Made by a program: the position numbers and the translations under genes. A DNA stretch of 64,000 bases from Gemmatimonas aurantiaca T-27. Lineage in GTDB: Bacteria > Gemmatimonadota > Gemmatimonadetes > Gemmatimonadales > Gemmatimonadaceae. Shown here piece after piece: positions 30,121-44,238 of this stretch. Position 1 is the stretch's first letter. Each line of letters begins with the position of its first letter. The stretch spans positions 434,001 to 498,000 of the forward strand of contig NC_012489.1 in assembly GCF_000010305.1 (NCBI RefSeq), given 5' to 3'. The notes beneath the pieces are model-generated. The model was not told the origin of the DNA. It made no database searches and saw only the letters and a program-made list of their open reading frames with translations.

Positions 30121-31196
30121 TCAGCAGATCCGGGGTAGTTGTTCGCCGATGGGCGTGGTGATGACCCGACGCGCACCCAGTCCGGTGCGGGCCACGAGCA
30201 TGCCCGGGTGGTCGGCCACCACTTCGCCGATGATGGCAGCATCGACACCCAGTGCATGGGCGCGCAGTGCAGAAAGGGCGGTGTTGGCCGCATCGGCCGG
30301 CACGATGGCCAGCAGCTTGCCTTCATTGGCCACAAACAGCGGATCGAGGCCCAGCACCTCACAGGCCGCGCGCACGGCGGGGCGAATGGGAAGCGCCCGT
30401 TCTTCGAGCATGATCCCGACATTGGCATCGGCCGCAATCTCGTTGAGCGACGTGGCCACACCCCCGCGCGTGGGATCGCGCAGCACGTGCACATCGGGCA
30501 CGGCGGCCCGCAAGGCATGCACCAGCGTATGCAATGCGGCCGAATCGCTGACGATGGTGGTCTCGAACTCGAGCCCTTCGCGCTGGCTCATGATGGCCAT
30601 GCCATGATCGCCGATGCTGCCGCTCACGAGTACGACGTCACCCACGGTGGCGCGATCAGGACCGATGTGCACGTCGTCATCCAGCACGCCGATGCCACTG
30701 GTGTTGATGTACACGCCATCGCCGTGACCGCGCTCGACCACCTTGGTGTCCCCGCAGACGATGCGCACACCGGCCTCACGCGCCGCACGGGCCATGTCGT
30801 GCACGATGCGGGCAAGCTGCGCCATGGGCATGCCTTCTTCGATGACAAATCCCACCGTGAGCACCAGCGGACGTGCCCCACTCATCGCGAGATCGTTCAC
30901 CGTACCATGCACGGCCAGTGAACCGATCGTGCCACCGGGAAACTCCAACGGCTGCACCACGAACGTATCGGTGGTATAGGCGATGCGGGATCCCGGCAGC
31001 GTGAGCACGGTGGAGTCGGTGAGCGCACTGGTATCTCCCGGCGCAAACGCCGGACGGAACAGGTGTGTCACCAGTTCGGCAGACAATTGCCCGCCGCCGC
31101 CATGGCCCATCACGATGGTCGGATAGTCCCGCAAAGGCAGTGGGCAGCTCCATTCGTCGAGCGATACGGCGGTGGGCTGCTGCGCGACGGTGGTGG

Positions 31197-31200
<4 letters not shown>
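30121..31200 (-). CDS. hypE: Hydrogenase maturation protein HypE
   Basis: A protein of 359 residues of the PurM/AIR synthase fold: [15 protein letters not shown] near 32, [14 protein letters not shown] near 190, and the ending LPRIC, whose terminal Cys359 carries the thiocarbamate. HypE accepts carbamoyl from HypF, dehydrates it with ATP to thiocyanate, and donates cyanide to the iron on HypCD. Its start overlaps the hypD stop by 4 bases. All expected features are intact. Confidence 0.97.
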
Positions 31201-32308
<1,108 letters not shown>

Positions 32309-32312
<4 letters not shown>

Positions 32313-32614
32313 TGCAGGCTCGATGTTGGCAACGGACAGGACGGTGGAGGCGAATACACCTCGTCAGCCACTTCTCCGAGTTCTTCTTCGAGAATGCCCA
32401 GTGAGCGGAAGTGGTGCAGTGTCTCCTGAGCCGAGGCTTCATCGATGAGACTGATGGCGAACCCCACGTGTACGATGGCGTACTGACCGACGACGGCATC
32501 GGGCAGGTACGCGAGGCACACGTTCTTGGTGATGCCACCAAAATCCAACTTGGCCATACGCACCACGCCTTCATCGAAGATCGCGGTGATGCGTCCGGGA
32601 ACGGCGAGGCACAT
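32309..32614 (-). CDS. hypC: Hydrogenase maturation chaperone HypC
   Basis: A protein of 101 residues beginning [10 protein letters not shown], with the essential Cys2 that binds the Fe(CN)2CO fragment. The usual [14 protein letters not shown] segment is present at about 44-57 and the helical [10 protein letters not shown] end is longer than in some homologues. HypC shuttles the iron ligand complex from HypD to the large-subunit precursor. It starts 3 bases after the NHL protein gene. Confidence 0.96.
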
Positions 32615-32616
32615 CG

Positions 32617-33813
32617 TCAGGCTCCTGTCAGGGAGGGGCCACAGGTCGCCGAGAGCGACCAGAGCATCACGCGATTGTTGCCGCTGTCGGCGATCGCGAG
32701 GTGATTGTCGTGCAACCAGACGCCGTACGGCCAGCAGAGCGTGTCATCGGCCACGGCTGTCCACCGGTTTTCCCCGGCTGCGTCGAAGTTGAACTGACCG
32801 AACACTTCCTGCGCCGGCGTCTGCACGCCGCGACGGGGCATGCCATGCCAGCGCAGTAGGCGATTGTTGGCCGTGTCGGCCGTGATCAGGGTGTCCTGTC
32901 GGGCCGCCACGGCGTACGGGAAACGCAATCGATGTGCGCCTTGCGGACGATGTGGTAGTTCTTCGTTGTGCGTGAAGCCTTTCTGGCCCAGCACGAGATC
33001 GGCGGGCCGGTCGGACAGCGGCGCGGGAGTCCATCCCAGCACGCGATGATTGCCCGCATCGGCCACAAACAGCGTTTGGTCGTCGCCGCTGATCGCATGT
33101 GGCCAACGAAACGATGCGGCCGATGGATCGCCGCCGCGGTTTTCATCGCCACGTGTCGCATCATCCTGCCCCAGCACGACCTGCGCAGACTCGCCGGGTT
33201 CGGGGATATGGGGCCACCCCAGCACACGACGATTGCCCGTGTCGGCGATCCAGAACCATCCACCGGCCATCCCCAACCCATACGGCCAGTAGAGGGCATT
33301 GCCGGCGATGCTGCCACCGGCATTGGGCATGGCATCGGACACGGTCGGCTGGCCAATCGCGTACGAAGGCGGCGTATCGTTGCACGTGGGGATTTCGTTC
33401 CACACGAGGATGCGATGGTGCCAGGCATCGGCCACCAGCAGTCGTCCGTGGTGCACCAGCACACCGGTTGGCAGATGCAGGCCGTTGTCACAGCCGCGGC
33501 CACCGGCCGCCGGTCCTTCCGCGTGAAAATGTGGCTGCCCCAGTACCACATCTGCGTCCGCACCATCCTGTGACGGATGTCCGTTCCAGATGAGCACCCG
33601 ATGGTTGCCCGAGTCTGCCACCACGATGCGCTCATCGTCGAACCACACACCACGCGGAGCGTAGAGCTGATTCGCGGTGGGCTGCGCCGAGGGGAGCGCG
33701 AGTCCGAACGGCGAGGCCGCACCGAGGCGACGTAGCGGCATCGACGACGACGGTGATGCGGATCGGGCCGTCTGTGTGGCGTCCGACATCGTGGACAGAG
33801 CGGGCGAGATCAT
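32617..33813 (-). CDS. Six-repeat NHL beta-propeller protein of the hydrogenase operon
   Basis: A protein of 398 residues from ATG 33813 (MISPALSTMSDAT), whose A overlaps the upstream stop (TGATG). A longer frame to 33894 would lie inside the Rieske gene. Six repeats are visible, each with a core such as VVADSGNHRVLIWN, LVADAWHHRILVWN, WIADTGNRRVLGWP, FVADAGNHRVLGWT, ITADTANNRLLRWH and AIADSGNNRVMLW, separated by VLGQ motifs. This predicts one closed six-bladed propeller. There is no signal peptide, so it is cytoplasmic. NHL proteins accompany this hydrogenase type, probably as a binding platform; the function is not established. Confidence 0.85.
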   Translation of the reverse strand: MISPALSTMSDATQTARSASPSSSMPLRRLGAASPFGLALPSAQPTANQLYAPRGVWFDDERIVVADSGNHRVLIWNGHPSQDGADADVVLGQPHFHAEGPAAGGRGCDNGLHLPTGVLVHHGRLLVADAWHHRILVWNEIPTCNDTPPSYAIGQPTVSDAMPNAGGSIAGNALYWPYGLGMAGGWFWIADTGNRRVLGWPHIPEPGESAQVVLGQDDATRGDENRGGDPSAASFRWPHAISGDDQTLFVADAGNHRVLGWTPAPLSDRPADLVLGQKGFTHNEELPHRPQGAHRLRFPYAVAARQDTLITADTANNRLLRWHGMPRRGVQTPAQEVFGQFNFDAAGENRWTAVADDTLCWPYGVWLHDNHLAIADSGNNRVMLWSLSATCGPSLTGA

Positions 33814-34703
33814 CAGGTTGGACGCAGTTGCACCCGACCGCCGTCCACCCGCACGGGCAGCGCTTCGAGTTGCGCCTGTGGGGCGGAGAGACATTCACCC
33901 GTTCCGCAGTCGAACCGGAACCCATGCCAGGGACAGGTGATGGTGCGCGCTTCACGGTCCACCATGCCGCCATCAATGGGCAGTCCCATGTGCGCGCACT
34001 CATTCCAGTAGGCGGTGATGGCGTCATCGAGCCGCAGGATGACGATGCTGCGCCCGTCGGCCACTTCATGACGGTAAGGGCGCGCATCCTGCAGTTCTTC
34101 GAGCAGCGGACCGTCCACCCACCCATCACCACGCGGGGCGCGGGTGAGTGTCACGAAGGCGGCAGCGGCATCGGGTTCGTTGGGCACGACCTCGATGCGC
34201 GTGATTTCGGGAACCTGTTCCTTGAGCGCCTCCTCGATGCCATTGCGCAGTGTCACCGACGACATACTGCAGCCATTGCACGAGCCGGACAGCTTCACGA
34301 ACACCGTATCGCTGGTGACGTCCACGAGCGTGACATCACCGCCATGGGACTGTGTGTACGGGCGAAGGTTCTCCACCACGCGGGCCACCCGGGTGCGCAT
34401 ATCGGCTTTCACAATGCCGTGCAGCGAGAGGAGCGCGTACACACCCGGATCGTCGATCAACTCGAAAAGCAGTTCCTTGCCACGGGGGTCCTGCTTGAGC
34501 GCACGCACGATGGTGGTGAGCCCCGCCTTGTGAAACGCTTCGAGTGCGTCCTTGAGCGCCAGGGCACGCGTGCGTTGATCGATGGGCATACCACGCACGT
34601 CGTCGAGCGTGCGTTGCACATTTGTGGCCAGTGTTTCGAGCGTGGCGTCGCTGGTACCGGAGGGCGATGCCGATGCGACCGGCAGAGGGGCGGTGGCTGT
34701 CAT
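33813..34703 (-). CDS. NifU-domain and Rieske-domain fusion iron-sulfur protein
   Basis: A protein of 296 residues. A helical N-terminus is followed by a NifU C-terminal-like domain with SCNGCS at about 155-160 (the CxxC that binds an Fe-S cluster), and a Rieske-type [2Fe-2S] domain with CAHMGLP and CPWHGFRFD near 238-268. The NifU-Rieske architecture corresponds, from memory, to the HhyE/HucE-type proteins encoded with high-affinity hydrogenases and proposed to carry electrons from the enzyme toward quinone. It ends at a TGATG overlap with the NHL gene and starts 5 bases after the 129-residue protein. Confidence 0.88.
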   Translation of the reverse strand: MTATAPLPVASASPSGTSDATLETLATNVQRTLDDVRGMPIDQRTRALALKDALEAFHKAGLTTIVRALKQDPRGKELLFELIDDPGVYALLSLHGIVKADMRTRVARVVENLRPYTQSHGGDVTLVDVTSDTVFVKLSGSCNGCSMSSVTLRNGIEEALKEQVPEITRIEVVPNEPDAAAAFVTLTRAPRGDGWVDGPLLEELQDARPYRHEVADGRSIVILRLDDAITAYWNECAHMGLPIDGGMVDREARTITCPWHGFRFDCGTGECLSAPQAQLEALPVRVDGGRVQLRPT

Positions 34704-34708
34704 GACGC

Positions 34709-35098
34709 TCAGTCGACCACCTGGAAGGCCAACCGCTGCTCCAGCGCTTCCTCCGCCTTCGTGGACAGGATGGTTGCGAATCCCCGTCGTGCGGTGAGTT
34801 GCATCCAGTCGCCGATGGTCCGCGCCTGGCCGTGCAACATCGCGGCATCCGCGGCGGGCAGAGGACGCCGAGCGAGTGATCCGAGCACGAAGGCCGCCCC
34901 GGCGGCATTGTCGAGCAGGAAGTCGGTGAACAGGGCGGAGACAAATTCATCCACCCAGACCCCGTCGCTGTTCGGATCGAGACGCAGCCGCGTGAGCGCG
35001 GGCACGGGACCACCACAGCGCTGCTCGATGCGCTCGACAAAACGTTCGACGGCGGTGTTGAAGAAAAAATCGAACTGCTGCCGTTCGTGCACGTTCAT
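34709..35098 (-). CDS. Uncharacterised 129-residue protein of the hydrogenase operon
   Basis: A protein of 129 residues, mostly helical and acidic, with no Cys pairs, membrane segment or signal. It begins MNVHERQQFDFFFNTAVERF and contains GVWVDEFVSALFTDFLLDNA. Its start overlaps the stop of the TPR gene by 4 bases and its stop is 5 bases from the NifU-Rieske gene, so it is translated as part of the operon. Its family was not recognised. A hydrogenase-specific chaperone or assembly factor is a reasonable guess from position only. Confidence 0.75.
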   Translation of the reverse strand: MNVHERQQFDFFFNTAVERFVERIEQRCGGPVPALTRLRLDPNSDGVWVDEFVSALFTDFLLDNAAGAAFVLGSLARRPLPAADAAMLHGQARTIGDWMQLTARRGFATILSTKAEEALEQRLAFQVVD

Positions 35099-36300
35099 GA
35101 AGGAACTCCGGCGGTGGAGAGTTGTCCGTTGATCAGTTCGAGCTGCTCCAGCAGTCGCTGCGCCGCGTCGGCTTCACCATGCCAGTGCAGCAGCTTGTGG
35201 GCCTCGGTGAGCTTCTCCACGGCGTGCCCGAAAATGCCCAGATGGGCGAGCGCGTTCCCCTGATTGGCCAGGATGCGGGCATACCCCACCGGATCCATGG
35301 CACGGGGGCGTACGGTCAACAGTTCTTCATAGGCTTCGACGGCCTGCATGAGATTCTCCTGCCGATGCCCCGACGGCATGTACTGCATGGCGTTGGCCAT
35401 GTTGAGCATGGTGCTGGCCCATTCATCCGCGTTGGTTTCGCGATCGTACACGCTGAGCGCTTCGCGGAAGGCCTGTACCGCAACGGCGAGGCGCAGTTTG
35501 TCTCCAGCTTCCGACATCGGCATCGCGACATAGGCAATGCCCAGGTTGGACTGAATGCGCGCCCAGAGCAGTGGATGCGATTCACGATCGATGCCGGCAC
35601 GCAGGGCCTGCTGATACAGTTGTGTCGCCTCGACGAGTCGATGTCGCCGCGATTCGGCGATCTGATGCACCACCAGCGCGTACCCACACAGCAACTCTGC
35701 TTGCAGGCCCGGCAGCGGAGTGTCCCCGGCCAGCGCAATCGCGTCCTTCCAGAGCGCTTCTGCCTGCTCCCCGGCCTCCTCGAGCCCGGCACGCTGGGCG
35801 AGTAGCTGCGCGGCGAGCAGCGGAGAGACCACCCGCGCCGCGGCGATGCCAGCATCGAGCTCGGTCGCCGACGCCGTGAGATCGCCGGTCTCCAGTGCAT
35901 GGCTCGCGCTCACCAGACGTGCATGGCCCGCCAGTTCGCGATCGAGCAACGACCAATCCGGTTCGCGATATTCGTCGCCCAAGACAAAAGCCGCCATCCG
36001 TGTCAGCGCAGACAGCACAGGATCGCTCCCCGCTTCAGCCTGGGCGCGCTCTGCGGGTTCCCCGGACAGCACGTAGCGGTTGTAGTGCGCAAGCTGACTG
36101 TCCTGCGACGCCAGCAACGACAGCGCGAGATCACGGTCGTTGCGACACGAGGCTTCGAAGAAATGCCAGGCCTCGGGCCAGCTCTCGGGTGTTTCACCGC
36201 GGAGCAGCGCCGTCAGCGCGGGCTGATCCGCGTCCACCGCCGGCAACAGCAACAGGCCGGTGGGATAGGGAAACACGCCGATCGGTTGGGGGCGGATCAT
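35095..36300 (-). CDS. TPR protein of the hydrogenase operon
   Basis: A protein of 401 residues, rich in Ala and Leu, with helical repeats of TPR type across about 120-390 (for example LWARIQSNLGIAYVAMPMSE, EWASTMLNMANAMQYM and YARILANQGNALAHLGIF). The N-terminal PIGVFPYPTGLLLLPAVDAD is not TPR. No signal or membrane segment is seen. It overlaps its neighbours on both sides by 4 bases. TPR proteins commonly scaffold complexes, so a part in hydrogenase assembly is likely but inferred. Confidence 0.85.
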   Translation of the reverse strand: MIRPQPIGVFPYPTGLLLLPAVDADQPALTALLRGETPESWPEAWHFFEASCRNDRDLALSLLASQDSQLAHYNRYVLSGEPAERAQAEAGSDPVLSALTRMAAFVLGDEYREPDWSLLDRELAGHARLVSASHALETGDLTASATELDAGIAAARVVSPLLAAQLLAQRAGLEEAGEQAEALWKDAIALAGDTPLPGLQAELLCGYALVVHQIAESRRHRLVEATQLYQQALRAGIDRESHPLLWARIQSNLGIAYVAMPMSEAGDKLRLAVAVQAFREALSVYDRETNADEWASTMLNMANAMQYMPSGHRQENLMQAVEAYEELLTVRPRAMDPVGYARILANQGNALAHLGIFGHAVEKLTEAHKLLHWHGEADAAQRLLEQLELINGQLSTAGVPS

Positions 36301-36653
36301 GAGATATCCGTGAAAGAGTGCGTCGTCATCTGCGTCGTCATCGACGAAGCCGGGACCAGCGCGACGCGCAGGGCGCCACGCTCATCGTCCCAGAATGCCG
36401 GCAGGTCGCCCGTGGGGCCGTCGTCGTGCAGGACCTCGCGTACGAGCACGCTGCGATCACCGGCCGGGTTGCGCTGCTTGAGCAACAAGCCACCACCGCC
36501 TGGTCCACGGGTGGGCAACAACCAGAGTTCATTGCCACGTGGCATGGCCAACAACGTGTCGGCGGGAAAGAAGCGCTGCGCGAGTGATACCGGCAGCACG
36601 AGGTATCCGTCACTGCGCAATTGCACCGTGAACGGCGTGGCGTTGGAGGTCAT
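36297..36653 (-). CDS. Uncharacterised 118-residue protein next to the hydrogenase protease
   Basis: A protein of 118 residues starting MTSNATPFTVQLRSDGYLVL. The ATG at 36653 overlaps the stop of the protease gene; the longer frame to 36824 is inside that gene. The first half (FTVQLRSDGYLVLPVSLAQR, then LWLLPTRG) faintly recalls a swapped-hairpin AbrB-like fold, and the second half holds LLLKQRNPAGDRSVLVREVL. No cysteine motif or membrane segment is present. Four-base overlaps on both sides tie its production to the protease and TPR protein. Confidence 0.75.
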   Translation of the reverse strand: MTSNATPFTVQLRSDGYLVLPVSLAQRFFPADTLLAMPRGNELWLLPTRGPGGGGLLLKQRNPAGDRSVLVREVLHDDGPTGDLPAFWDDERGALRVALVPASSMTTQMTTHSFTDIS

Positions 36654-37144
36654 GACACGGCCTCCTGCACCGCGATGGCGGCATCCACTTCCTGCATCAA
36701 CAGGTCGGCCACGCGATGCATGGCCGCATCGATGGCCGGTGAGAGCGGCGCACCGGGATCGAACTGGGCTCCTTCGATGAGCCACACGTCGATACGTGGC
36801 GGGTAGTCTTCCTTGAGCGCCCACCGCGCGAACGCCAATGCGTGATCCCAGCGAAATGCATGCAGGTTCACGCCGGCCAGCGGCGGGGTTTCCGCGTCAC
36901 GCCCATCCAGTCGGAAAATCGCGCCGGGTTCGGAGCCGCTGCGGCAGGCGTCCACGATGATGACGTGTGGCACGCCCCGCATCTGAAATCCGACATCCAT
37001 CCCGCCCGTTCCACCGTCGGCACAACGCACGCCGTGCGGCACCCCTCGATCCCAGAGGTGCCGCACGAGAATGGGGCCGACCGCATCGTCGCCGCGCAGC
37101 AGGTTGCCGCAGCCAACGATGAGTACGCGGACCGAATCGTTCAT
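36650..37144 (-). CDS. [NiFe] hydrogenase maturation protease
   Basis: A protein of 164 residues of the HycI/HupD family. GCGNLLRGDDAVGPILVRHL at about 11-30 contains the first nickel-binding acidic residue, and VDACRSGSEPGAI near 77-89 the second; a His follows in NLHAFRWDHAL. It cleaves the C-terminal tail of the large subunit once nickel is inserted. The matching substrate, the large subunit with a 19-residue tail, ends 21 bases upstream. It overlaps the next gene by 4 bases. Confidence 0.93.
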   Translation of the reverse strand: MNDSVRVLIVGCGNLLRGDDAVGPILVRHLWDRGVPHGVRCADGGTGGMDVGFQMRGVPHVIIVDACRSGSEPGAIFRLDGRDAETPPLAGVNLHAFRWDHALAFARWALKEDYPPRIDVWLIEGAQFDPGAPLSPAIDAAMHRVADLLMQEVDAAIAVQEAVS

Positions 37145-37165: not shown

Positions 37166-38791
37166 TCAGCCCATCTCTCCTATGCGGAAACGGGAGAGCT
37201 CCTTGCCGGTCTTTTCGTCATAGGCATGCACCGTGCACACGAGGCAGGAATCGTACGAACGGGCCACATGTCCCATCTCGATCGGGTCGGTGGGATCCTG
37301 AATTTCGGCGCCGATGAAGGCCGCCTCCATGGGGCCATGACGGCCCAGGCGATCGCGCGGTCCGATATTCCAGGCCGTCGGGGTGATCACCTGGTAGTTC
37401 TCGATCTTGCCGTCGCTGAGCACGATCCAGTCGGAGAGCGATCCGCGAGCGGCTTCGGTGGAGCCAAAACCACGACCACTCTCGAGTTCCACCGGCTTGT
37501 TGTAGAACCGGTCGTGCAGGTCGATCTGGTCGAGCCAGGAACGCACGAGACGGAAGTACTTGGGTGCTTCGTGCATGCGCGCCATCACGCGGGTGAGGAT
37601 GCTCGGTCCCACCGTTTGAATGGCGTCGAGAATGAACGGATCGTAGTCCTGATGCGCGGCGGCATCACCACGACCGGCGATGATCTGCCGCGCCAGCGGG
37701 CCGGCTTCGAGCGGAATCGCTCCCTTGCCGGGCACGTCGTACCGCGGCGACTTCGCCCAGGAATACTTGCCCTGCTTGTGGCCATCGAGCGGATCGATGG
37801 GATCGGTCTCACCCTGCCACGGATGCAACGACTTGTCACCACGATAGAACGAATGTGCGGTGTCCTCACGCACGTTCAGGTGATCGAAGTCGTGGAACGC
37901 CGATCCGTCGTAAATGCCGGCGCGGCTCATCAGCGCGGCGTTGCGCCCTTCCACCGTGGGACGTTCGTACAACTTGGGATCGAAGAACGTGCCGGTAGAG
38001 AGAAACGCGCCCACCCCCTGACCGTACTTGTCGAGACCGGCCCGTTGCGCGAAGCGGATGAACAGGCCGCAGTCGGAGTTGCGCTGCGATTCGTTCTCTT
38101 CGGCCCAGGCGAGCATGTCGTTCCAGCTCTTGATCTCAAGCCAGCGGTCGATGGAGCAGCCGAGCCACTGCTTTTCGAGCCACTCGCGCCGCCACATATC
38201 GAGAATGGCGATGGAGCGGGTCACGTCGGACAGCGACGGCGCGCACATCACGCCGCCCGGAATCATGAAGCTCGAGTGTGGCCATTGTCCGCCGAAGATC
38301 GCGTACACTTCCACCGGCTTGGCGGATAGCGTGACCCCTGGCTCGAAGCTCGTGCCGACAAAGGGCGCAAAACGCTTCACCACCTCGTCGTACTCGGGCA
38401 GGTGCGCGTACTTCTTGTTGATCAGGTCCACCGCAAACAGCGCATAAAACCAGCGCGGGATGGACAGCAACGTTTCACACGCCTGCGCGATGTTGCGAAT
38501 GAGCGTGGCGTTGTGTGGCAGGTGCGTCTTCCACGCCGTGTCCAGCGCGTAGGCCGCCTTGTAGAGGTGTGAACCGCCGCAGATGCCGCAAATGCGCGGC
38601 GTGACGATGAGACCGGCTTGCGGATCCTTGCCGCGCAGGATGATCTCGAATCCGCGGAACATGCTTGCTTCGGTCCATGCATCCGTGACAACACCGTCGC
38701 GAATCGTCACGCGCAGGTCGAGATCACCCTCCACGCGCCCGAGAGGGCTGATGCGCAGGTCGGAGGGCATGGGCTGAGTCGCCGTGGCCAT
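37166..38791 (-). CDS. hhyL: [NiFe] hydrogenase large subunit, group 1h-like
   Basis: A protein of 541 residues from ATG 38791 (MATATQPMPS); the frame to 38863 overlaps the small-subunit gene. The N-terminal nickel motif RICGIC supplies Cys68 and Cys71. The C-terminal motif DSCLVCTVH supplies Cys516 and Cys519, with cleavage expected after His522, releasing a 19-residue tail. The usual Pro before the third Cys is Ser515. The enzyme oxidises H2. Lack of a cytochrome b gene and the accessory set around it point to the oxygen-tolerant, high-affinity group 1h (actinobacterial type). Group assignment is by motif memory, not by a tree. Confidence 0.92.
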   Translation of the reverse strand: MATATQPMPSDLRISPLGRVEGDLDLRVTIRDGVVTDAWTEASMFRGFEIILRGKDPQAGLIVTPRICGICGGSHLYKAAYALDTAWKTHLPHNATLIRNIAQACETLLSIPRWFYALFAVDLINKKYAHLPEYDEVVKRFAPFVGTSFEPGVTLSAKPVEVYAIFGGQWPHSSFMIPGGVMCAPSLSDVTRSIAILDMWRREWLEKQWLGCSIDRWLEIKSWNDMLAWAEENESQRNSDCGLFIRFAQRAGLDKYGQGVGAFLSTGTFFDPKLYERPTVEGRNAALMSRAGIYDGSAFHDFDHLNVREDTAHSFYRGDKSLHPWQGETDPIDPLDGHKQGKYSWAKSPRYDVPGKGAIPLEAGPLARQIIAGRGDAAAHQDYDPFILDAIQTVGPSILTRVMARMHEAPKYFRLVRSWLDQIDLHDRFYNKPVELESGRGFGSTEAARGSLSDWIVLSDGKIENYQVITPTAWNIGPRDRLGRHGPMEAAFIGAEIQDPTDPIEMGHVARSYDSCLVCTVHAYDEKTGKELSRFRIGEMG

Positions 38792-38832
38792 GGCTATATG
38801 CTCGAAATGGAAGGTGAGAGGAGTGAGGCGGC

Positions 38833-39804
38833 TCAGACGACGAACATGTCTTCCTTGCTCCACTTGGGCGCCGCGATGCGTGCGGCGGCCGCATGGGCCA
38901 TGTACGACACGTGGTCGGTGCCGGTGGGCACTTCCTTCGGAATCGTGCCACTCACCTTCTGTGTCTTGAACACCGTGCCAGGCTTGAGATCATGGAACGG
39001 GAATTCGGGCTCGGTGCAACCGGTGCAGGGCATGCCGGCGCGAGTCTTCGATGACTGCCGGTTCCACAGAATGCGATTGCAAGGCGAGTGGGTCATCGGA
39101 CCGCGGCAGCCGAGTTCGTAGAACAGGCACCCCTGACGCGTGCCCTGACCGAACTCCATGGTGCTCTGCTTGTACTCGAAGTACTGCACCCGCGTACAAC
39201 CGGTCTGCGTGAACGTCTTGAAGAACGTCTGCGGGCGCTGCAGATCGTCGAGCGCGATATCGCCCGCTCGTCCTGCGGAGATGGCCACCAGGATCTGCGT
39301 CACCCAGTCGGGGTGTGTGGGGCAACCGGGGATATTCACCACGGGCAATCCCCACTTGGAGCGGAAGTCACTGCCCAGGAACCCGCCGTGTTTCCGCTTG
39401 AGATACTGCAGGCCAACGTTGTCGACCGGATTGGGCTCGGTGGCCGGGATACCGCCCCAGCAGGCACAATCGCCGAGTGCCACCACGGCCCCCGCATGCG
39501 ACGCCAGCTCTCTCACCCAGTCCATCATCGGGCGATCGGCAAACATGTTGAACCGACCGGTCTTGTTGGGACCCAGGATGACGGTGCCCTCGAACACGAA
39601 GATGTCGAGCTGCCGCTTGCCGGACGCGAGATCATTGAGCATCTGCTTCACCGGCTCGCCCATCTCATAGCCGAGTGATGGATGCCAGAGAATGTCGATG
39701 CCGAAGTCAGTCACGAGATCGCACGCGCTCGGCTCTTCGGCATTGAGGAAGGACATCGTGTTGCCGGAACACGCACCACCCTGCAGCCACAGCACCGTTG
39801 CCAT
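38833..39804 (-). CDS. hhyS: [NiFe] hydrogenase small subunit, group 1h-like
   Basis: A protein of 323 residues from ATG 39804 (MATVLWLQGGACSGNTMSFL), preceded by GGAGAA. There is no Tat signal and no C-terminal membrane anchor, so it is cytoplasmic. Proximal-cluster ligands include Cys12, Cys113 or Cys115, and Cys161 (NIPGCPTHPDW). The position of the usual second N-terminal Cys is Asn15, as in actinobacterial-type enzymes whose proximal cluster has three Cys and one Asp. Cys226, Cys233, Cys242, Cys260 and Cys263 serve the other clusters. It passes electrons from the NiFe site to acceptors, probably the NifU-Rieske protein. Confidence 0.92.
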   Translation of the reverse strand: MATVLWLQGGACSGNTMSFLNAEEPSACDLVTDFGIDILWHPSLGYEMGEPVKQMLNDLASGKRQLDIFVFEGTVILGPNKTGRFNMFADRPMMDWVRELASHAGAVVALGDCACWGGIPATEPNPVDNVGLQYLKRKHGGFLGSDFRSKWGLPVVNIPGCPTHPDWVTQILVAISAGRAGDIALDDLQRPQTFFKTFTQTGCTRVQYFEYKQSTMEFGQGTRQGCLFYELGCRGPMTHSPCNRILWNRQSSKTRAGMPCTGCTEPEFPFHDLKPGTVFKTQKVSGTIPKEVPTGTDHVSYMAHAAAARIAAPKWSKEDMFVV

Positions 39805-39967
39805 GTGAGGAAGTTCTCCGGGAAACAGCCGGTCACGCCGGCAGGGAATGGGAGAGGAGGGAGGGGCCACACCGTGCAGACACTGGCGTGGGTCGGTGTC
39901 ACAATGCGAAGGCCGGCAACGCGCAACAATAGCAAGAACTAGGTAGGCGCCCGGTCGTGATGGTGAC
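39805..39967 (-). promoter_or_regulatory. Probable promoter region of the hydrogenase structural genes
   Basis: This 163-base gap is the largest inside the operon and separates the response regulator gene from the small subunit gene, so an internal promoter is likely here. It holds ACACCG (39869-39874) and CGGTGT (39894-39899) as an inverted pair, and a small GCCGG-TCACG-CCGGC hairpin near 39824-39838 just upstream of the Shine-Dalgarno. No convincing -35/-10 pair was found. Confidence 0.4.
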
Positions 39968-40609
39968 TCAGGTGGGCGTTTGCAGCACGATCAATCCCTG
40001 GCTGGCCGCGATGCGCACCAGCTCCACCTGATTGTGCACATTCAGTTTCTGCATGAGGTTGGCGCGGTGTCGCGTGGCCGTGTGTGGGGAGATGTTCAGT
40101 GCCTCGGCCACGGCACTGGTTGTCAGGCCATTGGCGATCAGTTGCAGTACTTCGCGTTCGCGCGCCGTGAGAGACACCGGGCGCATGCGGGACTCCTGCA
40201 GGCGGGCCCGGTCGATGGCTGCGGCGAGATAGCGTTGGCCCCGCAGCACACTCTCGATGGCAAAGAACAGCTCATCATCCATCGAGTCCTTGAGCAGGTA
40301 GCCATCGGCACCGGCGCTCAGGGCCTGTCCCACCAGGTGAGTTTCGTCGTGCATGGACAGCACGAGGACGCGTGTCGTGAGTCCTTTGGCCCGCACGCGT
40401 CGCAACGTCTCGAGCCCGTCGATACCCGGCATGTTGAGGTCGAGAATCACGAGATCCGGGCGCTCGGCCTCAATGAGCGGAACGGCGGCCTCTCCTGTGC
40501 CCGCCTCCCCCACGACATCGTGACGACCATCGAGGCGCAGCAACACGGCGAGTCCGCGGCGCACCAGCGAATGGTCGTCCACGAGTACGACCCGTGTCCG
40601 GGTGTTCAT
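39968..40609 (-). CDS. NarL/LuxR-type response regulator in the hydrogenase operon
   Basis: A protein of 213 residues. The receiver has VVLVDDHSLVRRGL and the acceptor Asp57 in VILDLNMPGIDG. A LuxR-type HTH lies at about 147-205 (LTAREREVLQLIANGL, then NISPHTATRHRANL). It overlaps the upstream histidine kinase gene by 4 bases, making a clear cognate pair. Position directly upstream of the structural genes suggests it activates or tunes hydrogenase expression. Confidence 0.94.
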   Translation of the reverse strand: MNTRTRVVLVDDHSLVRRGLAVLLRLDGRHDVVGEAGTGEAAVPLIEAERPDLVILDLNMPGIDGLETLRRVRAKGLTTRVLVLSMHDETHLVGQALSAGADGYLLKDSMDDELFFAIESVLRGQRYLAAAIDRARLQESRMRPVSLTAREREVLQLIANGLTTSAVAEALNISPHTATRHRANLMQKLNVHNQVELVRIAASQGLIVLQTPT

Positions 40610-42282
40610 GTGAGCGGCAACTGTACCGAGACGACCGTACCCGTGCCGGGTTGGCTTGCCACATCACAGAGCCCTCCCAACTGATGCGCGCGCTCGGCGA
40701 TACCGCGCAGGCCGAGGCCAGACTGTGACCGCGTGATATCGAACCCGCAGCCGTCATCGCTGACGCGCACGAGCAGGCGCTGCGCCGTTTCACCCACACT
40801 CACGCGCACTTCCGTGGCGCCCGCATGAGCGGTGACGTTGGTGAGGGCTTCCTGCACGATCCGGAACACGGCGGTTTCGTGCAGCGGGAACCGACGTTGA
40901 TCGAGACCGTCCACCTCGAGATGCACCGCAAACCCGCCCCGTTGTTCGGTATCGTGCACCAACTGGGCGAGGGCCGCCGCGAGGCCGTGCTGGTCGAGCG
41001 CCGGAGGCCTGAGACGACGCGCCAATTGCCGAAACCGTGCGGTGGCCTGATTGACCTGCAAGCGCAGCTCATCGAGCGGTGCGCGCACGTGTGGCGTGTC
41101 CGATGGCAACACGCGCGACAGGACCTGCAAGGCCAACTTCACCCCGACGAGCGCCTGACCTGCCTCATCGTGCAACTCCCGTGCGATGTGCTGACGCTCT
41201 TCCTCGATACGGTCGGCGTGCAGGGCAAACAGTTGCCGCACTTCCGCGTTCTTGCTGGCCAAGGCGGTGACCAGGCGCGAGTTCTCGATGGCCATGGCCG
41301 TGGTGTCCGCCAGCGCCTCGAGAAACGACGCATCGTTCCAGGTGAACGGGGCTCGCTCGATCGTCCGATGCAGTTCCAGAAATCCCACGACTTGATGTGA
41401 CGCATCGCGGAGCGGCACACACACGGCATAGTGCACACCGTCGTGGTCCACCAGTTCTTGGTCGCGCGCCGAATCGGCCGGGTAGTCGGCGGTGAGATAG
41501 GCAAACTCGTGTTCGAGCACACGTCCGGGGATGCCTTCCCGTCGTGCCCAGGTGCGCGGAAGACGTCGCCAATGGTTCTGACTCCAGTAGCTGGTGGACA
41601 CCAGCCGTGTCTCGCCGTGTTCACCCACGCTTGTCAGTCCGGCATAACCACCGTCTGCCTTGAGGAAGCGCGAGGCATGTTCCACCATCTCCTGCACCAA
41701 CGCCTCGGGCTCCCGGTGTCGGTGCACCGATCCGGAGAAGGCCAACAAGGCCTCCATGCCATTCGACCATTCGGCCAACCGACCCAGGAGCTCCGCGCGA
41801 TCCACGGCCACGGCCAACTGTTCGGACACGATGGTGAGCGCCCGCAGCAGAATCGCATCGAAGGCATGCTCCGATCTGGCGGCGACGAGCAGCACGGCCA
41901 GGGGGTGCCCGGCATGATGCGCCACCGGCACGGCCACGACGCTGCCCCAACCCAGCATTTGCGGCGCCACGCAGGTGCCGGGAATGACGTCCAGGGCCTC
42001 GTTGCTGAGCAGGCACTCGCGGCGCGTGGCGGCCGTGTGCATGATCGCACGCAGCGTGCGCGTGGACTGTCGTTCCGGCAGCAGTGTGCTGCCCACCAAC
42101 GCAGATACTTCGCCTTCATGCACCGACGCGATCGCGACCAGTGGCACCTGCAGACAGGTCGCCATGGAGGTGCACAGGAACTCCCGCAGCGTCGCGCCAT
42201 CGGGCTCGCGCGCGAGGACCGACGCGGCCACGGCCACCAACTCGAGGGCGAGACCGTCCCGCTCGGAAGGTGTGCGGATCAC
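40606..42282 (-). CDS. GAF sensor histidine kinase (HisKA_3) in the hydrogenase operon
   Basis: About 558 residues if the GTG at 42282 is the start. The open frame reaches ATG 42489, but that would overlap hypB by 188 bases with low-complexity Pro/Ser sequence, so the start is uncertain. Two GAF-like domains (about 15-170 and 190-345) precede a HisKA_3 region with His371 in HIARELHDEAGQAL and a C-terminal HATPase (VSDDGCGFD, GLGLRGIAERA). It is a soluble NarX/DegS-class kinase. The GAF domains may bind a heme, flavin or small ligand and could report oxygen, redox or nutrient state. Confidence 0.85.
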   Translation of the reverse strand: MIRTPSERDGLALELVAVAASVLAREPDGATLREFLCTSMATCLQVPLVAIASVHEGEVSALVGSTLLPERQSTRTLRAIMHTAATRRECLLSNEALDVIPGTCVAPQMLGWGSVVAVPVAHHAGHPLAVLLVAARSEHAFDAILLRALTIVSEQLAVAVDRAELLGRLAEWSNGMEALLAFSGSVHRHREPEALVQEMVEHASRFLKADGGYAGLTSVGEHGETRLVSTSYWSQNHWRRLPRTWARREGIPGRVLEHEFAYLTADYPADSARDQELVDHDGVHYAVCVPLRDASHQVVGFLELHRTIERAPFTWNDASFLEALADTTAMAIENSRLVTALASKNAEVRQLFALHADRIEEERQHIARELHDEAGQALVGVKLALQVLSRVLPSDTPHVRAPLDELRLQVNQATARFRQLARRLRPPALDQHGLAAALAQLVHDTEQRGGFAVHLEVDGLDQRRFPLHETAVFRIVQEALTNVTAHAGATEVRVSVGETAQRLLVRVSDDGCGFDITRSQSGLGLRGIAERAHQLGGLCDVASQPGTGTVVSVQLPLT

Positions 42283-42301
42283 GTGGCGGTGGGCAGCAGA
42301 C

Positions 42302-43015
42302 TCAGTGAGCCGCAAGCCGTTGCGCGTGCCACTCGGCACGCCACTCGGCGCGTCGGGCATCCAACAGCGCGAGCCAGTCTTCGAGCCCGGCACCGGTACG
42401 CGAGGAGCAGGACAGCACCGGCATGCCTGGCCGAACGGATGCGATGGCAGCTTCCGCGGCTTCGCGGTTGAACTCGCAGGCCACGGCAAGATCGGACTTC
42501 GTGACCATCGCGATGTCGGCCGAGTTGAACATCGTGGGATACTTGAGCGGCTTGTCCTCGCCTTCGGTCACGGAGAGCAGCACCAGCCGCAGCGCCTCGC
42601 CAAGATCATACGAAGCTGGGCACACGAGATTGCCCACATTTTCCACGAAGAGCACCTCGATATCCTCGAGTGCCCATCCGTCGAGATGGGCATCGATCAT
42701 CTCGGCCTCGAGGTGGCAGCGTCCGTGGGTGTTGATCTGCCTGACCGGCGCCCCGCTGCGCGCCAGGCGCTGCGCGTCGTTGTCCGTCTCCAGATCGCCG
42801 ACCAGTGCTGCCACCCGCACGCCACGCTGGTGCAGCGCTGTGAGGGTCCATTCGAGGAAAGCCGTCTTTCCTGTTCCAGGACTCGACACGAGGTTCACCA
42901 CAAAAACACCGGCGGCCTCGAACCGTGCGCGCAGGCCATGTGCCAGCTCGTCATTCTTGCGAAGAATGCCGGCACGCACGGCAACGATGCGCGACGTGGG
43001 CATGGTGGAGGTCAT
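42302..43015 (-). CDS. hypB: Hydrogenase nickel-insertion GTPase HypB
   Basis: A protein of 237 residues. The P-loop SSPGTGKT is at 44-51, with [17 protein letters not shown] (metal-binding Cys-His region at the dimer interface), [16 protein letters not shown], and KSDLAV for guanine recognition. The N-terminal CxxCGC nickel site and His-rich tract of some HypB proteins are absent. It delivers nickel to the large subunit with HypA. It overlaps the hypA stop by 4 bases. Confidence 0.96.
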
Positions 43016-43437
43016 GCAGGGATCTCCGGCGCCTGGGATGCACCCAGTGCTGACGTGTCGTGGTCGATGGAATCGAAGTCGGTCGATGCACCGTCGTCGA
43101 TTTCCAGACCGGTGATGTCCAACTCACGTCCCCTTCGGATATCGCCGCTCGGTGTATCACAGACCGGGCAACGGAATCGGTTGACTCCCGGCAACTCGTG
43201 AATCGCAGCACAGGGTGCGCAATGAATGGCAATCGGAATATCCTCGATCACCAGCCGTGATCCCGCGAGCGGCGTGTCGGCAGCCACCAGCTCATAGGAG
43301 AACAGCAGCGCCCCCGGCTCGATACCGGAGAGTCGTCCTATCGCAAGGTATACCACACGAACGGACGACGCGCCAAGCCGACGCGCTTCCGCACCGGCCA
43401 CATCGACGATGCTCTGAGCGATCGACAGTTCGTGCAT
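43012..43437 (-). CDS. hypA: Hydrogenase nickel chaperone HypA
   Basis: A protein of 141 residues beginning [10 protein letters not shown]; His2 and Glu3 are nickel ligands. A zinc site is formed by Cys73 and Cys76 (CAPC) and Cys90 and Cys93 (CPVC). The tail after residue 115 ([20 protein letters not shown]) is about 25 residues longer than usual and acidic. It begins 12 bases after the DUF1641 gene. Confidence 0.96.
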
Positions 43438-43449
43438 GATGTGAGTGGA

Positions 43450-44238
43450 TCAGCGGCCAAGTTTTTGCCCGTACGCTTTCGAAGCGTGCAGGGCAAAACT
43501 GATCGCCCGATTTACGTCGGGATCACGCAGGGCGCGCAATAGGCCAAAGATCCCAATAGGCTTTTCCGCAGCCCGGGCTTCCCGAGCTTCCTCGTACGAC
43601 TCGGCCGCCGAACGCCCAATGGTGCCAAGGACTTCGACGGTCTGTGGTTCGAGCATGCCGGAGCGCACCAGCGTCTGGCCAGCGGCTACCAGCGTCGGGA
43701 GCGCCGCGAGGAGCTCCTTGAGCTTGGCAAAATCGGGTTGTGACGCGGTCTTGAGTTCATCGAGATCGGCCGAGAGCGCCGTGGCGATGGTGTCTCCACG
43801 CCGCAGGAGGCCATCGATGGCTTCGAGCGTGAACGCGGCGAGTTCGAGTCGATCGAGCACGGCTTTCACGGCCTCGATCGTTTTTTCTTCGCCGAGACGT
43901 TCGACTAATCCCGAATCAATCAGTCGTTGAAATCCGGGTGTGGCTGATACGTCGGCGAGTTGCACGCCCACGCGGGCGAGCTGGGGAATGCGACTGATCA
44001 CGTCTCCGGCGGCGGTGTCGTCACCGGCCAGGCGCTTCATATCGGCCACACTCTCCGCGACGCTTTCCGCCACGACGTTGGCGCGATGCAGAAAACCGTC
44101 CAACGCGTCCGCCACGAAGGCGAGAAGGTCGAGACGATCGAGCAGGCGGTTCAGTGAATCGATGGTCTTTTCTTCCGACAGGCGGGCCAGTAGCTGCTCC
44201 TGGGCAGCGCTGGATGCGGAAGGCAAGGCAGTCCCCAT
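43450..44238 (-). CDS. Duplicated DUF1641-like protein, first gene of the hydrogenase operon
   Basis: A protein of 262 residues, helical, without signal or membrane segments. It contains two copies of a motif: SEEKTIDSLNRLLDRLDLLA followed by DALDGFLHRAN near 20-60, and GEEKTIEAVKAVLDRLELAA followed by AIDGLLRRGD near 135-175. It resembles DUF1641 proteins, which occur beside redox enzymes such as formate dehydrogenases but have no known function. As the first gene of the minus-strand operon, it begins opposite hypF, with a shared 121-base promoter gap at 44239-44359. Confidence 0.75.
   Translation of the reverse strand: MGTALPSASSAAQEQLLARLSEEKTIDSLNRLLDRLDLLAFVADALDGFLHRANVVAESVAESVADMKRLAGDDTAAGDVISRIPQLARVGVQLADVSATPGFQRLIDSGLVERLGEEKTIEAVKAVLDRLELAAFTLEAIDGLLRRGDTIATALSADLDELKTASQPDFAKLKELLAALPTLVAAGQTLVRSGMLEPQTVEVLGTIGRSAAESYEEAREARAAEKPIGIFGLLRALRDPDVNRAISFALHASKAYGQKLGR

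Follow-up and report, generated by a model that had tools for sequence, protein, structure and literature searches.

Electron exit or enzyme assembly: a NifU-Rieske protein and an NHL-repeat protein in the Huc-type hydrogenase operon of Gemmatimonas aurantiaca T-27

A stretch of 64,000 nucleotides from Gemmatimonas aurantiaca T-27 (NC_012489.1; hereafter the window, whose positions are used for all coordinates) carries a [NiFe] hydrogenase operon in which a gene for a NifU-Rieske protein, HucE, is followed directly by a gene for an NHL-repeat protein. What do these two proteins do for the hydrogenase? The first-pass annotation had suggested that the pair may be the missing electron exit of an enzyme that lacks cytochrome b, with the propeller as a docking platform. 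The analysis described here shows that the exit is encoded elsewhere in the operon, and with moderate confidence we favour, over electron carriage, a dedicated assembly module for HucS and HucL formed by four genes (TPR, a 129-amino-acid protein, HucE and NHL). The genes on which the argument rests are:

43450..44238, minus strand: hucM homolog (DUF1641), docking domain in two tandem copies, residues 16-68 and 111-163
38833..39870, minus strand: hucS, small subunit; menaquinone-site residues K234, Y251 and Y323
37166..38863, minus strand: hucL, large subunit, group 2a-type [NiFe] hydrogenase (PDB 7utd_A, E 5e-265)
35095..36300, minus strand: TPR-like protein, accessory block (in 57/57 loci)
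34709..35098, minus strand: 129-amino-acid conserved protein, accessory block
33813..34703, minus strand: hucE; helical N-terminal domain, NifU domain (CNGC), Rieske domain (CAH...CPWH)
32617..33813, minus strand: NHL-repeat protein, six-bladed propeller model, hcaB-type gene (start at 33813, 33789 or 33741)
30121..32614, minus strand: hypC, hypD, hypE

The pair thus lies, as had been claimed, between the hydrogenase (hucSL, 37166-39870) and hypCDE (30121-32614).

The class of the hydrogenase was assigned by comparison with solved enzymes. HucL matched the Huc of Mycobacterium smegmatis (7utd) with E 5e-265 (next-best enzyme 2e-62) and HucS with E 9.8e-177 (next-best 5.5e-34), both subunits being nearest to Huc among solved hydrogenases. 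The DUF1641 product of 43450-44238 matched HucM (PDB 7uus_Q, E 6.2e-11), so that a HucM subunit is encoded nearby, and the window HucS keeps all three menaquinone-binding residues. With residue numbering transferred through the alignment of the window HucS to 7utd, equivalents of M. smegmatis Lys212 and Tyr301 were present in 78/78 aligned HucS sequences and of Tyr229 in 77/78 (Phe in L033). By sequence, the operon is that of a group 2a (Huc-type) [NiFe] hydrogenase. Group 1h, the class first considered, was rejected as the subunits match group 2a Huc instead; a literature search for a group 1h structure yielded nothing new. The window locus is very probably the G. aurantiaca locus already reported with hucL as GAU_0412, in a species that oxidises H2 to sub-atmospheric levels (PMC7784904).

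Huc purified from M. smegmatis consists of HucS, HucL and HucM, and menaquinone sits beside the distal cluster of HucS, where it is reduced directly (PMC10017518). Because a HucM homolog heads the operon and the menaquinone residues of HucS are kept, the electron exit is encoded without HucE, and the premise of a missing exit, drawn from the lack of cytochrome b, is wrong.

Both open reading frames (ORFs) of the pair were recovered where they had been annotated, with the Pfam domains expected of them. The gene at 34703-33813 (minus strand) is hucE. Its product of 296 amino acids contains a NifU domain (E 7.7e-26, residues 106-171, CNGC) and a C-terminal Rieske domain (E 9e-14, residues 202-278, CAH...CPWH). 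These are the features of M. smegmatis HucE (MSMEG_2268), in which the NifU CxxC precedes a C-terminal Rieske domain and whose gene lies in the Huc cluster (PMC6883350); the comparison is one of protein domains and cluster membership, and in the window the NHL gene and hypCDE come straight after hucE. A helical domain, residues 18-94, precedes NifU in the AlphaFold2 model (mean predicted local distance difference test, pLDDT, 89.8; predicted template modelling score 0.55). No counterpart of this N-terminal domain was found in the fold search, in which only Rieske and NifU folds appeared among the 50 matches listed.

The NHL gene encodes a product of 398 amino acids from the ATG at 33813, with NHL repeats scoring 73.9 bits (Pfam cut-off 20). 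Six LYAPRG-type repeat starts were located at residues 50, 112, 174, 235, 296 and 359, with five repeats spanning 61-63 residues and the last one shorter. The AlphaFold2 model (mean pLDDT 92.2) has six strand groups between residues 55 and 386; the last blade has three strands and can be completed by an additional strand near the N-terminus (25-31). Its top PDB fold matches were the NHL propellers of Drosophila Thin, TRIM2 and TRIM71 and the designed Pizza6, all of which we take to be six-bladed. Read from the strand list of the model, the protein is predicted to be a six-bladed propeller with closed ends, in agreement with the closed six-repeat propeller proposed earlier; a docking role for it is possible. 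A 425-amino-acid ORF from 33894 is just the maximal open frame and was rejected; translation from the ATG at 33813 gives up to 398 amino acids. The reported overlap of the two genes depends on this start: that ATG shares one base with the hucE stop (TGATG), but conserved sequence begins only at about residue 30, so that a later start at 33789 or 33741 is possible, in which case the genes do not overlap.

To see how closely the pair follows the hydrogenase, GTDB species genomes were scanned with HucL, giving 80 loci. The own-genome locus (L081) was excluded from all locus counts except those of the histidine kinase and response regulator given below, and counts of downstream genes were restricted to the 57 loci with at least 6 kb (6000 nt) past hucL, leaving out 23/80, including L073. 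HucE and TPR were present in all 57, NHL in 56 and HucM in 50; five of the seven loci without HucM have less than 1.5 kb of locus upstream of hucL. The order hucS-hucL-TPR-hucE-NHL was found in 60/60 loci having all five genes, and hypC lies at most 400 bases after the NHL gene in 35/56. Among 150 Gemmatimonadota genomes, the four with HucL above 1000 bits were also the four with NHL above 500 bits and the four with HucE above 400 bits; these cut-offs were set after the scores were known (next best 139, 73 and 80 bits, respectively). None of the 38 other Gemmatimonadota genomes with some [NiFe] hydrogenase match had an NHL above 500 bits. The tie of both genes to the hydrogenase, proposed from the window, therefore holds across genomes (HucE 57/57 and NHL 56/57 loci; the same 4/150 Gemmatimonadota genomes).

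Such a distribution would also suit HucE and NHL as structural or quality-control partners that tether mature Huc to HucM or to the membrane, or as regulators using the clusters as redox sensors. The block is as widespread as hucSL, and NHL identity to the window protein is 45-64% across the aligned loci, as expected for a fixed partner surface (alignment of 43/62 loci, without L026, L002 and L055, cut by contig ends, L020, L022, L051 and 13 loci whose start escaped the search pattern). The words HucE and NHL are absent from the Huc structure paper, however, and deletion of hucM leaves the M. smegmatis enzyme active (PMC10017518), whereas deletion of hucE does not (PMC6883350). We therefore regard this explanation as improbable.

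In M. smegmatis, the organism in which the need for HucE in H2 oxidation has been reported from a deletion, loss of hucE leaves no more H2 oxidation than is seen in the Huc structural mutant and also removes the Huc band in nitroblue tetrazolium staining, i.e. the dye-linked activity (PMC6883350). As the stain is lost too, a simple downstream-carrier role is unlikely. The authors prefer electron transfer and concede that the dye result also fits a role in assembly.

A module for electron exit should keep its cluster ligands wherever it is kept. In the HucE alignment (62 rows, L026 left out), 10/62 rows were deficient: 52/62 keep the NifU CxxC and all four Rieske ligands, 4/62 keep the Rieske site only (L008, whose NifU domain is gone, L045, L050 and L057), 1/62 the CxxC only (L074), and in 5/62 neither site is complete (L038, L046, L058, L068 and L077). 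All ten loci retain the NHL gene, and a genome-wide search in five of these ten genomes found exactly one NHL each. Mapped onto a quickly built HucL tree, the NifU state requires at least five changes and the Rieske state at least three. Eight of the ten loci are actinobacterial, and four of the five double losses fall in a single actinobacterial clade. Judged by title, all but one of the ten records are metagenome-assembled genomes (MAGs), the exception, Marihabitans asiaticum (L057), being an isolate. A Rieske pattern search over all ORFs of the seven loci with a lost or masked site found none. A truncated HucE without the C-terminal domain had already been noted, and no description of NifU cysteine loss was found in the available parts of the same paper (PMC6883350). 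An apparent HucE-NHL fusion in L026 was rejected as an artefact of masked bases. Alignment A2 used 58/62, omitting L003, L020, L022 and L071.

Electron transfer or exit through HucE has evidence on both sides. Both cluster motifs are present in 52/62 rows, H2 respiration needs HucE, the HucE homolog of group 1h (HhyE) co-migrates with its enzyme, and menaquinone would be a fitting partner for a high-potential Rieske cluster (PMC6883350). Against this stand the HucM homolog and the quinone site, with direct menaquinone reduction by Huc (PMC10017518), the failure of the dye to rescue the hucE deletion (PMC6883350), and the rows in which both sites (5/62) or one site (five others) are incomplete. 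On these grounds, electron exit via HucE and NHL was abandoned as the leading view, and we consider electron transfer through HucE unlikely.

The same losses bear on the idea that HucE is a redox helper, outside assembly and the main electron path, by which the enzyme is reactivated or protected in the presence of O2. The combination of Rieske and NifU domains and the report of HucE for group 2a and 1h hydrogenases working in air (PMC6883350) speak for such a helper; the ten loci (eight actinobacterial) with missing cluster sites and the failure of the activity stain of the hucE mutant even when run in an H2-rich atmosphere (PMC6883350) make it very improbable.

An assembly role is favoured by the later Huc structure, the loss of the dye stain and the recurrent loss of HucE cluster sites, and further by the location of the block, which precedes the hyp genes as it does in Nostoc. 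There an extended hyp operon contains alr0691 (TPR), alr0692 (NifU) and alr0693 (NHL), for which a role in small-subunit maturation was proposed in 2008 and 2011; it differs in that two small membrane ORFs (asr0689 and asr0690) come first and alr0692 is annotated as NifU plus thioredoxin-like (PMC2408588, PMC3126725). A divergent Gemmatimonadaceae MAG also argues for assembly: its 38% NHL relative follows hypA-B-F-C-D-E, and a search for HucE gave no match. HucL of this MAG is 57% identical, and its two NHL relatives (38-39%) both lie after hypE, away from hucSL. By function only, the block may be likened to maturation factors of iron-sulfur (Fe-S) subunits of the HupGHIJ, HoxOQ or HoxR type.

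In this assembly role, the NHL propeller and the TPR protein would hold the apo-subunits, while the N-terminal and NifU domains of HucE would bind the subunit and, if the CxxC is there, deliver an Fe-S cluster. In HucE proteins that have one, the Rieske domain might add a redox step or protect nascent clusters in air. Electrons of the finished enzyme would pass from HucS directly to menaquinone supplied by HucM.

Several points weigh against assembly. HhyE co-migrates with its hydrogenase in native gels, and in mycobacteria its genes are grouped with structural rather than maturation genes (PMC6883350). Aneurinibacillus terranovensis (L065) has Huc and HucE, and a genome-wide search found no NHL, so that Huc can sometimes do without NHL. 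In the HucE alignment 61/62 rows retain the second NifU cysteine, and a metal or sulfur function may therefore survive loss of the first. In Parageobacillus, whose Phb/Huc locus has TPR, a hypothetical gene, NifU, NHL and hypCDE in the same order (PMC6036681, PMC12976888), the NifU gene of the block showed strong induction, yet read counts of TPR and NHL were near zero (PMC12976888); the low counts may be a counting artefact. Lastly, we infer not only the assembly role but also every physical contact, the NHL substrate and the chemistry of HucE.

Elsewhere, TPR and NHL (hcaA/hcaB) occur within conventional group 2a operons of Kyrpidia, whose second, divergent group 2a hydrogenase lacks FeS, TPR and NHL genes and is expressed nonetheless (PMC7248562). 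The genome with the divergent Huc-like hydrogenase (57% HucL) described above is represented by L073, L082 and L083 (6655-7743); in L073 neither HucE nor NHL was found within the approximately 5 kb available downstream of hucL. HucE-like proteins of two other Gemmatimonadota genomes (L084 5751-6821; L085 4114-5076) contain neither a NifU CxxC nor an intact Rieske motif, the first Rieske histidine being replaced by Glu or Asp, though Pfam Rieske still matches; the former adjoins a [NiFe] large subunit and the latter a HucL match.

The HucM homolog of the window (43450-44238, minus strand) carries its docking domain doubled in tandem. Its C-terminal 150 residues resemble HucM 7uus_Q (PMC10017518), from which it differs by the additional N-terminal copy. 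Besides the window, the tandem domain was found in 33/62 HucM loci, from Gemmatimonadota, Acidobacteriota, Planctomycetota, Chloroflexota, Rhodothermota and one more taxon, and a single copy in 29/62, from Actinomycetota, Bacillota, Aquificota and others. In their available parts, neither PMC10017518 nor PMC10792529 was found to mention the duplication. As a tentative proposal, to which we give somewhat less than even chances, the block would be a Huc-specific assembly chaperone with the HucE N-terminal domain and the propeller as universal core and the clusters optional, and in Gemmatimonadota, Acidobacteriota, Planctomycetota and Chloroflexota the Huc stalk would be built from tandem-docking HucM with altered stoichiometry (e.g. 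two chains, not four).

The gene pair, its neighbours and the G. aurantiaca Huc are already in print (PMC7784904, PMC2408588, PMC3126725, PMC6036681, PMC12976888, PMC7248562); HucE and NHL-repeat proteins are listed among common hucL neighbours, with no NHL role given in the available parts of that survey (PMC7784904). The recurrent loss of HucE cluster sites and the tandem docking domain, neither of which was found in the literature searched, may be new. Huc removes H2 from air, lets bacteria live on it and is a candidate biocatalyst, and producing it outside its host requires knowing which helper genes build it. The survey places the TPR-HucE-NHL block with nearly every Huc, with clusters dispensable in some lineages, and the electron outlet at HucM and menaquinone, not at HucE. 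HucE proteins that naturally lack complete cluster sites allow electron transfer to be tested directly against assembly.

The complete minus-strand gene order is hucM homolog, hypA, hypB, histidine kinase, response regulator, hucS, hucL, protease, 118-amino-acid protein, TPR, 129-amino-acid protein, hucE, NHL, hypC, hypD and hypE. A Pfam search with the 129-amino-acid protein (34709..35098) gave no match, and the 118-amino-acid protein, considered as HucM, gave none in that comparison. The genes not yet given are:

43012..43437, minus strand: hypA
42302..43015, minus strand: hypB
40606-42489, minus strand: GAF histidine kinase
39968-40609, minus strand: response regulator, NarL-type
36650..37144, minus strand: hydrogenase maturation protease
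36297..36653, minus strand: 118-amino-acid conserved protein after the protease gene

The histidine kinase and response regulator lie inside the operon, with hypB on one side and hucS on the other; direct matches to them were found in 20/81 and 22/81 loci, respectively (own genome counted). The protease and the 118-amino-acid protein (36297-37144) are separate genes in the window and form one open frame in 11/53 directly matching loci, a possible fusion as judged by the open frame.
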